A stretch of DNA of 64,000 nt, taken from Bacillus xiapuensis. GTDB lineage: Bacteria; Bacillota; Bacilli; Bacillales; Domibacillaceae. Below, piece by piece: positions 44,758-49,739 of this stretch. The stretch is from positions 839,828-903,827 of the forward strand of contig NZ_KZ454939.1 in the NCBI RefSeq assembly GCF_002797355.1. The letters are read 5' to 3'. Below the pieces are notes generated by a model. The model ran no database searches. It was given only the letters and a program-made list of their open reading frames with translations, and had not been told where the DNA came from. The position numbers and the translations under genes were made by a program. The stretch's first letter is position 1. The number at the start of each line of letters is the position of its first letter.

Positions 44758-45265
44758 GGCTTGAAGGGGTCAGCAGCTTTTTCACGCATATTTCTTTGAT
44801 TTTACGGTGCCGCCCAATGATTTTTGCTGCGGCTCATTAAATAATGGACAAACTCATCATCTTTTGCCAACCAAGCGCTGAATTGTCTTTTTAAGAAATG
44901 TTCTCCTTCGAAGAAATTTGCAAAGGTTTCGCTGATCGCTGAGCGGCTGTGCTCAATTGCCCACTTCTGCTGATTGATCGGGTACAGCAGAAAAGTTTCT
45001 TTCTCTTGATTTTCGTAGAGTGAGCCAAAGAGAGATTCCTTTACATTATAGCGATTTCTTTTGGCATCCTCCCGCAGCGGCTTCAAATGAAAAGTATCGT
45101 TAACAAATGTTTGATACACATCCTCTGTCAATAAACAGCCGGATGCTTTAGCATGGCCACCGCCTCCATACACGCCGGCAATTTTGGAGACGTCGATATA
45201 GTCATGAATCGTCCGCAGCCCCATTCGTTTGCCGCCCATATTTAGAATAGCGATATATGTATAGA

Positions 45266-45287
45266 AATAATAAAGTTGTTTAATTTC
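45266..45287 (+). repeat. Putative TnsB site L1
   Basis: AATAATAAAGTTGTTTAATT-type motif just inside the left terminus, in inward orientation. Confidence 0.65.
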
Positions 45288-45300
45288 ATCCCGAAAAATT

Positions 45301-45337
45301 AATAATCATCTATCTGATAAGTCGATAGATGATTATT
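45301..45337 (-). terminator. Terminator of the element's cargo genes
   Basis: AATAATCATCTATC (45301-45314) and GATAGATGATTATT (45324-45337) form a perfect 14-bp stem. On the minus strand it is followed by AATTTTTCG, so it ends the leftward cargo transcript inside the element. Confidence 0.7.
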
Positions 45338-45386
45338 AGATTTGTTTAAAAAAATTTGATTTTCTTGTATCTTACGCCTATTTAAG

Positions 45387-45408
45387 CACAATAAAGTTGA
45401 TTAATTTC
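45387..45408 (+). repeat. Putative TnsB site L2
   Basis: CACAATAAAGTTGATTAATT, the second inward-facing copy in the left end, 120 bp from L1. Confidence 0.6.
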
Positions 45409-45442
45409 GGAAAGCGAATCGTTAAACATACACCCGGCGATA

Positions 45443-46480
45443 CTATCCCATATTATTTTTAATATGCATTTTCAGTTCACTAGGAGCATCTGATTTAATT
45501 GCTACATAATTATATTCTTTTTCAAATCCCATAAAAAGTATCACTTTTTGTGGGGTTTTCATTTTTAAAATCACATCTGGATATACCTTTTCAAAATCAC
45601 GTATCACAAAGTCAATAGTATCCTTTGTCAGTTTACGTTCTAAAACAGCTGAATCCTCAATCATACATTCAACATTAGAATAGTCAATTTTTGCACGTTT
45701 CATTAAACCTAATGACAGATAAAATGATTCGTTAGCGAAATAAATTGGATTTAAACGCAAAGCTTGTATGTCCGCTAAGAAAAAAATAACCGAGTAAATA
45801 TTTAAAGCTAATAAAATTATCGATAAAATTGGCGCTTTTTCATGTAGCCAATAATGTACCCCTATCGTTTCTACTATAATGGCGTGCATCATCATGATTT
45901 GAAATGCAATAAAGTTCGATTTTTTATACATAGTAATTCCTATTGGTTCTGTATTTTTCCAGCTACTGAATGCATAATAGAGCATAAGCAATTCAGAACA
46001 GATCATTTGGATAATTGAGTTATTTCGCACGTATTGCTCTACTGCTTGCGAGAAGGAAAAAGCGACAGGGAGAGTACTTTTCTTTACTTCATTTAATATC
46101 TTCGGCATATAACGAACAAATGTGATGATTAATAAAAGCTCTAAAAGAATAATACAACCTTCTACAATGATGCCAATCCAAACAATCATTTCATAAGGCC
46201 CTAACAACGAAGGGGGTATAAGAAAACGAATTAAAATACACCCTAGTGCCGATAAAATAATTGCTGATTTGAATGTGAATTTATCGCGATATAGCATAAT
46301 GAATAAAGGCAATAAAATAATAAAATCTAACATTGAACCTAGCACAATAGATTGCGTATCTTCGGGTAAAATCTTTGATCCGACTGAAGTTTGATATACC
46401 ATAAAGTTACTACAAATAATTAAAGCGAGCATAAAGAGCCACATTGGCTTTGCTTTCCCAATCCAAATCATTTTATTCAT
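45443..46480 (-). CDS. Polytopic membrane protein of unknown function (element cargo)
   Basis: A 345-residue protein with about seven membrane helices (for example MWLFMLALIICSNFMVYQ, FIILLPLFIMLY, VWIGIIVEGCIILLELLLII, QIMMMHAIIVETIGVHYWL) and a cytosolic C-terminal domain of about 100 residues (from about 245, RAKIDYSNVECMIEDSAVLE). Related Bacillus proteins are sometimes labelled beta-carotene monooxygenase, which I think is unsupported. Its start overlaps the MarR gene by 8 bp, so the pair is coupled. It is AT-rich compared with the flanking nrnB pieces, consistent with transfer. I cannot name a function; a sensor or transport-related role regulated by the MarR protein is possible. Confidence 0.75.
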   Translation of the reverse strand: MNKMIWIGKAKPMWLFMLALIICSNFMVYQTSVGSKILPEDTQSIVLGSMLDFIILLPLFIMLYRDKFTFKSAIILSALGCILIRFLIPPSLLGPYEMIVWIGIIVEGCIILLELLLIITFVRYMPKILNEVKKSTLPVAFSFSQAVEQYVRNNSIIQMICSELLMLYYAFSSWKNTEPIGITMYKKSNFIAFQIMMMHAIIVETIGVHYWLHEKAPILSIILLALNIYSVIFFLADIQALRLNPIYFANESFYLSLGLMKRAKIDYSNVECMIEDSAVLERKLTKDTIDFVIRDFEKVYPDVILKMKTPQKVILFMGFEKEYNYVAIKSDAPSELKMHIKNNMG

Positions 46481-46895
46481 CTCCCGCTAGCTTTATCAAT
46501 TGTTCAAGTATACGTGCTAAATGCTGTAAATCTTCTATTGGTAGTAGCCCATATAGATTTTCATTCATTTCTTTTTCTAGTAATATCATTTGCTCAAAAT
46601 ACTTTTCACTTTTCTCAGTTAATTGGAGTTTTATTTTTCTTCGATTTTCTTTGTCAATTGTTCTAATAATATACTCATGAGCTTCGAGCTTGTTTAATAA
46701 TTGACTGACCGCACTCGTTGAAACGTTTAAGCTATCTGCCAAATCTTTTGTTGAAGTAACACCAGAGCGAATTAATTCTAATACTAACACTTGTTTTGCT
46801 GTTAATTGATTATCGATATGCTTCTCATATTTACTTGCTAATTGCATATTCAACTGTGCTTGTAAACTATTTATTTTTCCAACAAGTTCTTTCAA
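46473..46895 (-). CDS. MarR-family regulator (element cargo)
   Basis: A 140-residue winged-helix repressor. Helix-turn-helix and wing: VTSTKDLADSLNVSTSAVSQ near 48-67, then LLNKLEAHEYIIRTIDKENR. N- and C-terminal helices form the dimer interface. The start is TTG at 46895; AAAGGGTGG lies 7 nt upstream, inside the right arm of a 44-bp perfect palindrome (46901-46944). Such a palindrome is a likely self-binding site and could also hide the ribosome binding site as an RNA hairpin. It overlaps and probably controls the membrane protein gene. Confidence 0.85.
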   Translation of the reverse strand: MKELVGKINSLQAQLNMQLASKYEKHIDNQLTAKQVLVLELIRSGVTSTKDLADSLNVSTSAVSQLLNKLEAHEYIIRTIDKENRRKIKLQLTEKSEKYFEQMILLEKEMNENLYGLLPIEDLQHLARILEQLIKLAGDE

Positions 46896-46900
46896 TACGA

Positions 46901-46944
46901 AACCACCCTTTATTATTAAGTTAACTTAATAATAAAGGGTGGTT
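46901..46944. promoter_or_regulatory. 44-bp perfect palindrome over the MarR gene start region
   Basis: The left arm AACCACCCTTTATTATTAAG plus TT mirrors exactly onto AACTTAATAATAAAGGGTGG plus TT, with no gap. The centre TTAAGTTAACTTAA is a plausible MarR operator and the right arm holds the ribosome binding site. As RNA it would form a 20-bp-plus hairpin. Both operator and translational-control readings are inference. Confidence 0.8.
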
Positions 46945-47060
46945 AATTAAATTGCAATAATAACTATCTACGCTTTTTTACACTTTAATAATATTTAAAT
47001 ATTATTTCTTTTATTACAAAACGAAAGAAATAATTGGTGTAAATTGCTAACATTGCGCCG

Positions 47061-47083
47061 ATTTTTCAAACTACTTTATTTGT
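47061..47083 (-). repeat. Putative TnsB site R2
   Basis: On the minus strand ACAAATAAAGTAGTTTGAAA, facing inward from the right end. Confidence 0.55.
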
Positions 47084-47102
47084 TTTTAAACGACATTATT
47101 GT

Positions 47103-47123
47103 AAATTTAACAACTTTATTGTC
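47103..47123 (-). repeat. Putative TnsB site R1
   Basis: On the minus strand GACAATAAAGTTGTTAAATT, next to the right terminus and closest to the Tn7 repeat. Confidence 0.7.
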
Positions 47124-47698
47124 AATCAACAATATAATCCAGATAGGGACATTCTTTACCCAGTTCATTTCCAAGCTCGGAATGATAGGACTCCGCGTAA
47201 ACGATGTCGGCGAGATGTTCGCCTACGGATGCTTGAATGAGTTCTCTCCGCTTGCGGCGAATATAGCGCTCGATTTTCTTTTCCTCCATATCCAGCAGGC
47301 TTTGTTCAAAGTCATCAAAGAAGAAATGTTCCTGCGTTGTCAGCCGGCTGATCATTCTTTCTTCAAATTCATCGATGGAAACTAAAAAGAAAAAAGCGTT
47401 CAGTCTTTTGGCTGCTTGATTATCGTTTTTCTCCCATTCCCATGTATCATACTGCCTAATGAGTTCGACAAACTCGGTGATGGCCTGCGAAGGTTCCAGC
47501 AGTTTTCGGGAAAGGAGGAACTCGTAAAGCAAGGAGGCAGCTGATGCCGGGGTTCCTTCCTCTTCCGCTGAAATATGCGCCCAATCATATGCATTCAAAT
47601 GCCATGCGGACTGATGATGATCAAGTAATTGCACTTGGCCGCCGCTTTGATAAAATTCCTCGAGCTTTTTTTCATTTTCTTCATTAACAGACAGGTCG

Positions 47699-47880
47699 TT
47701 GAGACTCCCACGTCTAAAGACGCAAGCCCTAAACCTTACGGTTAAACGGGTGGGATTCTTGAATGACTAAGCGTTCGCAGTCCATTTCTGTTTTGAACAG
47801 CCTTCAAGATGAGGGCATCTCATTGCCCCTCATAGGGCAGAACCTATAGTTCCCTATGCTGATTGACTATTACCATCAAT
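47699..47880 (-). ncRNA. Predicted omega RNA (reRNA) of TnpB
   Basis: The stretch from the end of tnpB to the right terminus is where IS605 elements encode the guide RNA. The 3' part is structured (CCCACCCG...GTGGGAG with an inner CGTCTTTAGACG hairpin) and ends in TCTCAA, after which the guide would read into nrnB, starting CGACCTGTCTG. The position follows the known layout of the family; the exact 5' end is not determined. Confidence 0.6.
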
Positions 47881-48930
47881 CACAGGTGCACATCGAATAT
47901 TCATAGCACCTACTAGATCACGATGTTTCTCGAATCCGCATTTACACTTGTATTTACGGTCTTGTGCTTTGTTCTTTTCAGAACAGTGAGGACATGTTTG
48001 ACTCGTATAAACAGGATTCACATATTCAACCTTAATGCCTTCTAACTTGGCCTTGTACTCAATAAATTGAGATAGACGATAAAAGGACCATGTATGCAAA
48101 TTCTTTTCGTTTTTACGACTTGTTCTTGTCGTCTGTCTGATATTCGCTAATTGTTCTATACGAATGACAGAGATTTCATTTTCTTTAGCAAAATTAACAA
48201 TCGCACGACTTACTTTATGGTCTTGATCTTTCATCCAACGCTGTTCCTTGTTTTTTGAACTGCGGATAGCATTTAATTTTTTCTTTTTGCCTAATGCTTT
48301 ACGAACAGAACGAAACTTTCTCTTTTTATATTTATTCTGTCTGCCGTTACCAAAGAAACGCACTTTTCCGTCATCAGTTACTGCAACAGCCGGAACTTTT
48401 AAACCTAAGTCAACTCCCATAACCTTGAATCCCGTTTTTTGAGGAGTAGGCGTAGTGACAGAAATTTGTGCGATCCATTTATTTGACTTTTTCGTGATAC
48501 GCAATGTGCCTAACTTATGTTTCAGCAAATTGAAATTTCGATTTTCCTTATCAATTAATAAAGCCCGAATAGGCGTTTTCTTGGCTTTACCGTCAATCAT
48601 GATCGGCAGTGAAATATGAGTGAAGTCCAAAGAGTAGTTTTGGTTGTTCCAGATACACGTAGGTTTCTTTAAGACTGGAATGGTTTCAAGTTTTGTTTTC
48701 TTTGCCTTCTTGAAAACACTTTTCGCATCTTTAATTGCTTGGTTTTTCACCGCACTGGGCAAAGAAGCACCAATGTTTTTACTTGTTTTCTTAGTGCTTT
48801 TCTTTTCTTTTACCATTTCAGACACAAGATCGTTGATTGTTGAAATGTATGTTTTACTCATTTCGGTCAAAGTCAAATCCTGTTCTTTAGTAGGTAGCAA
48901 TTTGATTTTTACAGTGATTGTTTGTGACAT
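47854..48930 (-). CDS. tnpB: TnpB, RNA-guided endonuclease
   Basis: A 358-residue TnpB. The RuvC-like catalytic residues are in GVDLGLKVP (Asp near 173), RIEQL (Glu near 269) and HRDLVGAMNI (Asp near 342). A zinc ribbon is present (CPHC...CKCG). The middle is Lys/Arg-rich for RNA binding. The start is ATG 48930 with AAGGGGGTG upstream; a longer start at 48963 is unlikely. TnpB of this group cuts DNA guided by the omega RNA next to a target motif like the insertion site (here TTAC), which keeps the element from being lost. Confidence 0.93.
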   Translation of the reverse strand: MSQTITVKIKLLPTKEQDLTLTEMSKTYISTINDLVSEMVKEKKSTKKTSKNIGASLPSAVKNQAIKDAKSVFKKAKKTKLETIPVLKKPTCIWNNQNYSLDFTHISLPIMIDGKAKKTPIRALLIDKENRNFNLLKHKLGTLRITKKSNKWIAQISVTTPTPQKTGFKVMGVDLGLKVPAVAVTDDGKVRFFGNGRQNKYKKRKFRSVRKALGKKKKLNAIRSSKNKEQRWMKDQDHKVSRAIVNFAKENEISVIRIEQLANIRQTTRTSRKNEKNLHTWSFYRLSQFIEYKAKLEGIKVEYVNPVYTSQTCPHCSEKNKAQDRKYKCKCGFEKHRDLVGAMNIRCAPVIDGNSQSA

Positions 48931-48934
48931 GATT

Positions 48935-49333
48935 TCACCCCCTTGTTTTTTGTTGTTCAACATATCGCTTTATAGTTTGACTTGATACGTTTCCAGCAGT
49001 AGAAACAAAATAAGAACGTGTCCACAAACTTGGCAGGTGTCGCAGGTGCGGAAATTCTTCTCGCAACTGTTTAGATGTCACTCCTTTGATTTTTGCCATG
49101 ATGTTTGCAGGGCTTAGTGTAGGTAGTACATTGAGAAACATGTGTGCATGGTCTTTGTCACATTCTAAAGCAATCACTTGTATTTTTAGTGGTTCGCATA
49201 TTTCGTGCACCATTTCTTTGAATCTCTTTTCTACCTTGTTGTCAAGAAATATTTTTCTTCTGTATCGAGGACAAAACACAAAATGATAGTTAATGAATGA
49301 TACGGTTGTAGTAGTTCTTCTATAATCTTCCAT
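48935..49333 (-). CDS. tnpA: TnpA, Y1 HUH transposase of IS200/IS605
   Basis: A 132-residue single-strand transposase. The HUH motif is in CDKDHAHMFLNV (His-x-His) and the catalytic Tyr in QTIKRYVEQQ near the C-terminus. SFINYHFVFCPRYRRKIF at the start is typical. I start at ATG 49333 (MEDYRRTTTT); an in-frame ATG at 49405 would add 24 unrelated residues. The ribosome binding site is weak, as often in this family. tnpB begins 4 bp after its stop. Confidence 0.92.
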   Translation of the reverse strand: MEDYRRTTTTVSFINYHFVFCPRYRRKIFLDNKVEKRFKEMVHEICEPLKIQVIALECDKDHAHMFLNVLPTLSPANIMAKIKGVTSKQLREEFPHLRHLPSLWTRSYFVSTAGNVSSQTIKRYVEQQKTRG

Positions 49334-49739
49334 ACTTATATTTTTATCAGTTTTCACTATAAACGACAACAAATATATAAAAATAAATATAGTGGAGTTT
49401 TCCAATACTTGAAGTACCGCAAAACCTTACGGTTAAATGCGGTACTCCGTATTTGACCTCACTATCATCCCACGTCTCAAGACGGTCTGCGACCTGTGTG
49501 GGCTTTCTTGTTCGAAAACCTGTAATCAGTAAAAACGTATTCTTATCGCCGTGATCTAAAAACCATTTAACTTCATGGTCAAGCCCGGATACTGAGTTAT
49601 AACGGACGTGGACTTTTTCCCGAAAGCGATTTTGGCTAAAATGCCGCAGCCCACGCCGTCTAAATCATTATGAGACAGCAGTCGATACATGCTCTTCACC
49701 TCTTCTAAATAGTATGGCATGATTCGCGGAAAATAATAA

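Follow-up and report, generated by a model that had tools for sequence, protein, structure and literature searches.

An element within nrnB

We describe here an element of 1874 bp (45258-47131) in a 64,000-nucleotide stretch of a Bacillus xiapuensis contig (NZ_KZ454939.1), which is referred to as the window in the following. It lies inside the coding frame of nrnB and consists of Tn7-like ends that enclose two genes, one for a regulator of the MarR family and one for a membrane protein (Table 1). Its terminal trinucleotides read TGT (45258-45260) and ACA (47129-47131), and the pentanucleotide ATATA stands directly outside both of them; these termini and the 5-bp target duplication had been proposed in an earlier interpretation of the window, made without database searches (the sequence-only reading), and they proved exact to the base. 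The GC content of the element is 29.8%, as opposed to 44% in the flanking DNA. Among its open reading frames (ORFs) and Pfam matches no tns gene was found, and only the MarR and membrane-protein genes have support, which confirms the earlier description of two genes in 1.9 kb without tns functions.

Once the element and one copy of ATATA are removed in silico, the nrnB frame is open at the junction, as the same reading had noted. A search with the 3' part of nrnB gave matches in 21 of the 24 genomes of the bacterial family, including that of the host. In all 20 other relatives that were aligned the site is empty and the frame is open (397-472 aa), with junction residues conserved as DYI[AT]I[LIV]; set against these empty sites, the proposed ATATA junction is sharp. 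In the host genome (3.26 Mb in three contigs) the element is present as a single copy, the sole second match being a fragment of its own palindrome. On the far side of the element, nrnB is also split by an element of the IS200/IS605 type (approximately 47694-49700; TnpB at 47854-48963, TnpA at 48935-49405), and the gene has thus been broken more than once.

Table 1. Features of the element and of the interrupted gene (positions refer to the window)
Feature	Position	Strand	Remarks
nrnB, 3' part (interrupted gene)	44802-45252	-	ORF list, frame join, relatives' alignment
Target duplication ATATA, left copy	45253-45257	.	Empty site in 20/20 relatives
Tn7-like left end, tip TGT at 45258	45258-45407	+	Three TnsB-type sites at +12, +78, +133
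Left-end site 1, AATAAAGTTGTTTAA	45269-45283	+	15/15 match
Hairpin between left-end sites 1 and 2	45295-45343	+	20-nt arms, 90% complementary; folding z -5.2 versus base-shuffled controls
Left-end site 2, degenerate	45335-45349	+	12/15 match
Left-end site 3	45390-45404	+	14/15 match
Membrane-protein gene, 345 aa	45443-46480	-	Helical part and possible PH-like C-terminal domain; RefSeq plasmid relatives labelled 'beta-carotene 15,15'-monooxygenase'
MarR-family regulator, 140 aa, TTG start	46473-46895	-	Pfam MarR PF01047, E 5.7e-11
Perfect 44-nt palindrome, core TTAAGTTAACTTAA	46901-46944	.	5 nt before the MarR start; putative operator
Tn7-like right end, tip ACA at 47131	47065-47131	-	Sites every 20 bp: 47120-47106, 47100-47086, 47080-47066
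Target duplication ATATA, right copy	47132-47136	.	Sequence read
nrnB, middle part, other side of element	47137-47690 (end approximate)	-	5' end beyond the second, IS200/IS605-type insertion

Ends of the element

Both ends contain repeats of the ACAATAAAGT type, a core that is a feature of Tn7 sites. To score the ends, the 15-mer AATAAAGTTGTTTAA was placed at +12, +78 and +133 from a tip for left ends, or at +12, +32 and +52 for right ends, at approximately 128,000 positions on both strands of the window, with a maximum of 45. The true tips rank first, the left with 41/45 and the right with 40/45, while the runners-up reach 29 and 32; at the right end, the three sites match the 15-mer at 14, 13 and 13 of 15 positions. 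The inward-facing motifs that had been likened to the TnsB sites of Tn7 are therefore present at both ends, as putative TnsB sites that overlap on the right and are spaced on the left. Together with the TGT/ACA tips and the 5-bp duplication, they give the element the features by which Tn7-like ends are recognized. A right-end profile trained without the window also finds its right end, at an E-value of 8.3e-13.

A regulator and a membrane protein as cargo

The two cargo genes overlap by 8 nt and are preceded by the palindrome. A homologous pair is found in one further genome (G002), with 62-64% identity for MarR and 61% for the membrane protein, and the 14-nt core of the palindrome is kept at 13 of 14 positions before the MarR gene there. 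The cargo is thus probably an autoregulated MarR-membrane protein operon, with the palindrome as the probable MarR operator. When 16 homologue loci, most with 1.5-kb flanks, were searched for the MarR of the window, the only match was that in G002; the other relatives of the membrane protein lie near other regulators, as judged partly by eye. Promoter-like sites are as frequent as in shuffled sequences (12 versus 12.0), and there are two terminator-like sites versus 0.7.

Relatives of the membrane protein occur in 14 of the 24 genomes of the bacterial family, the host included. Four of the six matching plasmid records are labelled 'beta-carotene 15,15'-monooxygenase'; Pfam gives no support for this label, as the protein has no Pfam family and none of the six weak families found over 14 homologues is a carotenoid oxygenase. 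In these 14 homologues (one of them partial), the invariant residues include E114, E163, H199, E204, H209 and H213, and this conservation of glutamates and histidines suggests a metal- or lipid-dependent activity at the membrane. The predicted structure (predicted local distance difference test, pLDDT, 79) consists of long helices and a C-terminal β domain, which aligns with several PH domains at middling Z-scores, with unrelated entries scoring equally high; a Foldseek search with the protein yielded nothing significant. The sequence-only reading had described a compact, regulated membrane module that could not be assigned to any known system. The two-gene module stands, and it can now be assigned in part, namely to a MarR protein with a conserved palindromic core and to a membrane-protein family that recurs within the bacterial family.

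At the homologous locus in G002, a solitary ACAATAAAGTTGTTTAA site lies approximately 63 bp after the membrane-protein gene (L005, 2607), in the orientation opposite to that of the window's left end; another site of this type is found 6.3 kb away and a broken tnsA approximately 38 kb away.

Matching ends around tns genes

We surveyed 397 genomes of the host's order (probably Bacillales in the broad sense, to judge by named relatives such as Lysinibacillus and Priestia), 91 of which have TnsA matches (114 in total), and examined the right ends around 80 of these matches besides the host's own. By eye, right-end sites keep AATAAAGT or AAAAAAGT, and the half-site that follows varies between TnsB groups, taking the forms GTTGTTT, GTTGTACCGT, GTTGCGATGT, GTTTGATTAA, GTCGGTAACT and GTTTGC. 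Right ends with GTTGTTT were seen only with the TnsB group of the genomes G335, G364 and G070, at five loci in four genomes (these three and G286), and we infer from this that the cassette belongs to the same group. The TnsB proteins of G070, G335 and G364 group together with support of 99/97, apart from the TnsB that the host encodes on its contig C3. Within their sister group (L139, L140, L144 and L161), the one readable right end, that of L139, has the half-sites GTTGTAT and GTTCTTT. The half-site after AATAAAGT or AAAAAAGT also varies, by eye, within a single clade; its wide variation between TnsB groups may represent a recognition code.

Two of these genomes provide elements in which the same ends surround tns genes. 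In G335, a right end has four sites, three of them GTTGTTT and one GTTCTTT, and a cluster of TnsA, TnsB, TnsC and TnsD (Pfam) begins directly inward of it; the TnsB matches the solved Tn7 TnsB at 1e-109. The left end lies approximately 17.6 kb away, has sites at 12/78/133 and a tip that reads TGA instead of TGT, and AGAAA stands outside both tips. In G070, the first of two tandem elements was detected with E-values of 5.8e-12 by the left-end profile and 7.8e-6 by the right-end profile; it has left sites at 12/79/134, the first two of which flank a palindrome (by eye), both of its tips are bordered by TAGAT, its TnsA is matched, and its tnsB frame is broken near the start. The sequence-only reading had proposed to look for its end motifs around tns genes, and they are found here with 5-bp duplications of their own.

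Like the window element, the elements of the G335/G364/G070 group have TGT-type tips (except for the left tip in G335), left sites at 12/78/133 or 12/79/134, right sites approximately every 20 bp and the AATAAAGT/AAAAAAGT-YGTTT motif, and those in G335 and G070 have a 5-bp duplication; unlike it, the elements of the group carry tns genes, and those in G335 and G070 span approximately 17.6 and 20 kb, as against 1.9 kb for the window element, which is situated within a coding sequence. In G364, a left-end match lies 19 kb from the right end; it was rejected as a complete matching element, as the flanking 5-mers differ (TTTTT versus ACATG). G364 was used solely for its TnsB and its right-end motif, and the sites of this right end are not uniform (GTTGTTTC, GTCTTTTC, GTTGTTTC). 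In the tandem arrangement of G070 (L229/L230 on its contig C8), the left tip of one Tn7-like element and the right tip of its neighbour are 4-5 bp apart, and tnsB is broken in both.

Short elements without tns genes

A strict tip pattern, TGT-N4-10-ACAATAAAGTNGNTTAA, fails to match the window's own ends and is present in 24 of the 397 genomes and in 17 of 135 genera, while the reversed control pattern occurs in one listed genome. In 32 loci fetched around its matches, end profiles, which were trained on the same elements that they then find, delineate nine elements with convergent right and left ends, the window element included, of 388-2902 bp. Seven of the nine have exact 5-bp duplications (ATATA, TTAAG, GTAAA, GAGTT, GTTGT, CCTCG and ACAAA), that is, six of the eight beyond the window. 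By eye, the seven duplications have no sequence in common. Six of the seven, including that of the window, come from a scan that required a duplication, so that the independent cases beyond the window are GTAAA (L056) and a duplication in four of five positions (L080); the remaining element, L073, has both ends and no duplication.

The contents of the eight further elements are diverse. According to Pfam, the main genes of L053 (326-2263 in G096; duplication TTAAG) are IS200/IS605 TnpA and TnpB, L072 carries DUF3888 and DUF3231 proteins, L073 ASCH and SUKH proteins, L084 two acetyltransferases, L078 a recombinase fragment and L056 a YppG-like ORF. The ORFs of L080 all overlap, are of low complexity and are 87-127 aa long, and L082, 388 bp long and with an exact duplication, has no ORF of 70 aa. 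No TnsA or TnsB match was found within 3 kb inward of any of the 17 right ends that score at least 37 bits, the window's included (14 with the full 3 kb of sequence). With the G335 TnsB as query, 19 of the 24 pattern-positive genomes gave no match at E 1e-3 and five gave matches of 34-43% identity, one of them a fragment and one with a stop codon; four of four control genomes matched.

The hairpin of the window's left end also has counterparts. In 12 of 15 left ends, the stretch that separates site 1 from site 2 folds better than its base-shuffled controls (z of -2 or lower), the exceptions being L082, L083 and L056; the controls for these z-scores are simple shuffles of the bases, two genomes of a single genus contribute five of the 15 left ends, and the left end of L053 is interrupted by its insertion-sequence cargo.

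Several candidates were set aside. A weak TnsB-like match at L061 is a 481-aa transposase whose neighbours are resolvases and an AAA protein; it shares 25-28% identity with fused TnsAB and was treated as a separate element, which we take to be Tn552-like. At L055, a fused TnsAB cluster begins directly beyond an end that is oriented away from the cluster, and it was not counted as the element's own. A TnsA match at L062 covers 28 residues beside or over the end itself and was attributed to chance, and a pair of ends at L059, a longer pair at L084 and a weak 185-bp pair at L059 were dropped, the first two for poor ends.

Two other arrangements were observed in the same survey. At L076 (2304-12999 in G204), two similar ends of the left type point towards each other across 10.7 kb, without a right end by profile; among the genes between them, a two-component system and an SDR/TetR pair were noted by eye. 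At L174 (3797-6601 in G280), L118 and L127/L055, the DNA immediately upstream of tnsA, or of the gene next to it, contains an end that points away from the tns genes; at the G280 locus, this end closes a 2.8-kb interval beside tnsABCD, which has one ORF of at least 150 aa and unmatched 5-mers outside.

Proposed mobilization of the element

Taken together, we consider it likely that the element is a non-autonomous Tn7-like transposon, a 'natural mini-Tn7', that was mobilized in trans. TnsA and TnsB of the group with AATAAAGT-YGTTTAA sites would have acted on it together with TnsC, supplied by an autonomous element elsewhere or by a plasmid of the past, and would have cut the cassette from its donor and inserted it into nrnB, within a gene rather than at a safe site. 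The cassette would thereby have brought its two-gene operon from a relative of low GC content. In its new place, MarR would probably bind the 44-nt palindrome before its own gene, and the sensing of a ligand would derepress both MarR and the overlapping membrane-protein gene, whose product may exert a metal- or lipid-dependent activity at the membrane, perhaps with a PH-like tail. As no matching TnsB was detected in the genome, the cassette is probably stranded there, albeit still mobilizable.

A number of observations weigh against this interpretation. The link between half-sites and TnsB clades was judged by eye, involves three distinct TnsB proteins for the G335/G364/G070 group and is not clean, since a supported clade (L145-L160) mixes the half-sites GTACCGT, GCGATGT and TAACCGT. 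When the window is left out of the training, a left-end profile matches the window's left end weakly (E 0.03, over approximately the first 40 bases), and the case for this end consequently depends on spacing and motif. Neither a donor nor a transposition event nor a second copy of the cassette was seen, and no genome was found that has both a short element and a TnsB of the G070/G335/G364 group; the nearest co-occurrence is in the genus g19, with tns elements in G364 and G286 and short elements in G170 and G345. Moreover, nrnB is not otherwise intact, as it also contains the insertion of the IS200/IS605 type and, close to its start, a frame shift; the ligand, operator and activity of the cargo are putative; and the host holds another Tn7 system, whose TnsB is 44% identical to that of G335.

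This other system provides one alternative. The host's tnsABCD genes form one cluster on the 28.8-kb contig C3, and the sole Mu-transpos_C match in the genome is a protein of this contig. As C3 encodes TnsA, TnsB, TnsC and TnsD, and as the AATAAAGT core is common to its sites and those of the cassette, it might have cross-mobilized the element. Ends of the TTTGC type as beside C3 recur at the start of contig C1 and the end of contig C2, and both ends of C3 are of this type: C1 and C3 agree in bases 11 to 119, up to a left-type tip, and C2 and C3 have 119 bases in common, which run from a right-type tip as far as the end of the contig, with TGTGG as the flank on both C2 and C1 and unmatched flanks on C3. 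These are a second kind of Tn7-type end, duplicated in the host genome, and not the cassette's kind. The C3 sites read AGAATAAAGTTTGC, not AATAAAGTTGTTTAA, and differ in the 3' half, the GTTGTTT right ends go with a TnsB group that excludes the C3 TnsB, and a genome-wide scan that allowed no or one mismatch found the cassette's motif at its own three sites and nowhere else. Yet half-sites vary within one TnsB clade, so that the difference in half-site does not by itself exclude C3. On re-checking, the link between half-sites and TnsB proved less clean, and we adjusted our estimates slightly, downwards for mobilization by the G335/G364/G070 group and upwards for C3, which we still regard as unlikely.

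The tns genes of C3 lie just outside a left tip, which suggests either that a copy of a short element stands on each side of C3 or that C3 is a circle of its own. After tnsABCD, C3 (L021, L022) carries, according to PADLOC models, an operon of the CBASS type (cyclic oligonucleotide-based antiphage signalling system; cyclase, E1-E2, JAB and a single-transmembrane effector), a type I restriction system and a GajB-like helicase, followed by genes of a heavy-metal type (by eye).

The sequence-only reading had left the choice between mobilization in trans and a deletion derivative. Under the latter, a full Tn7-like element would have inserted into nrnB, where internal deletion would afterwards have removed the tns genes and most of the cargo, in keeping with the single copy in the host genome, with the degenerate second left-end site and with the very variable cargo of Tn7-like elements reported in a survey (PMC8649781). 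Such a loss would have had to preserve both ends, the duplication, the operon and its palindrome with little spare DNA. Furthermore, elements without tns genes, with the same ends and unrelated cargo, recur across genera down to the 388 bp of L082, which is explained most simply if the cassettes themselves move. Because of this recurrence, mobilization in trans fits better, and we regard decay in place as unlikely.

Finally, the missing match to the G335 TnsB in most pattern-positive genomes could mean that an unrelated, undescribed transposase recognizes these ends; this is very improbable, as the tns-bearing elements have the same end layout and duplication length, and as ORFs of at least 140 aa in the 32 loci form six clusters in at least three genera that are all housekeeping by eye (ABC ATPases, two-component systems and metabolic enzymes).

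Relation to known systems

Beyond the window, we lean towards the view that natural 'mini-Tn7' cassettes without a transposase form a class that is dispersed through the host's order. These would share Tn7-type ends, with left sites at approximately 12/78/133 and a hairpin, and right sites at a spacing of 20 bp. They would move in trans to scattered sites other than attachment sites, carry single regulator-effector modules, insertion-sequence genes or nothing recognizable, and usually reside in genomes without a matching TnsB. The Tn7-like transposons of the large survey mentioned above (PMC8649781) likewise have inverted-repeat ends and diverse cargo; that survey took tnsB as the minimal requirement, for which reason elements without tns genes could not appear in it. 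Among the papers listed by searches of the openly licensed PubMed Central literature, we saw no report of natural cassettes with Tn7 ends and without tns genes. If the class is real, tnsB-based surveys could not have seen it, and the window together with the eight further loci indicates that the reach of the Tn7 machinery may exceed counts based on tns genes, and that cargo may travel independently of the large parent element and to places other than attachment sites. Such elements have ends that would be natural substrates for studying the half-site specificity of TnsB, mobilization in trans and untargeted insertion, and the MarR-membrane protein operon is a concrete, compact cargo of functional interest.

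In terms of established classes, the element comes close to the miniature inverted-repeat transposable elements (MITEs) and mobile insertion cassettes (MICs), which lack a transposase and, in the case of MICs, bear passenger genes. It likewise combines transposon ends and a target duplication with the absence of a transposase. MIC231, however, has the ends of IS231, a member of the IS4 family, whereas the ends of our element are Tn7-like, and no matching autonomous partner was found in the host genome, where the sole TnsB, that of C3, lies outside the G335/G364/G070 group. Both MIC231 and Bacillus MITEs are listed as classes of mobile elements in PMC6542083. As it encodes no TnsB, our element is best classified as non-autonomous, with ends that are Tn7-like, and does not count as a complete Tn7-like transposon.

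Prototype Tn7, as described in PMC11406308, has TGT/ACA tips; its right end carries four 22-bp TnsB sites that overlap one another, and the sites of its left end are spaced. The element resembles it in its tips, in the overlap of its right sites and in the spacing of its left ones. It differs from Tn7 in its other half-site, in the 20-bp spacing, in that three right-end sites are recognized and in that no known attachment site adjoins it. In overall design it is also like the laboratory mini-Tn7, in which Tn7 ends and a cargo are moved in trans; that construct is engineered, whereas the element in nrnB is natural.

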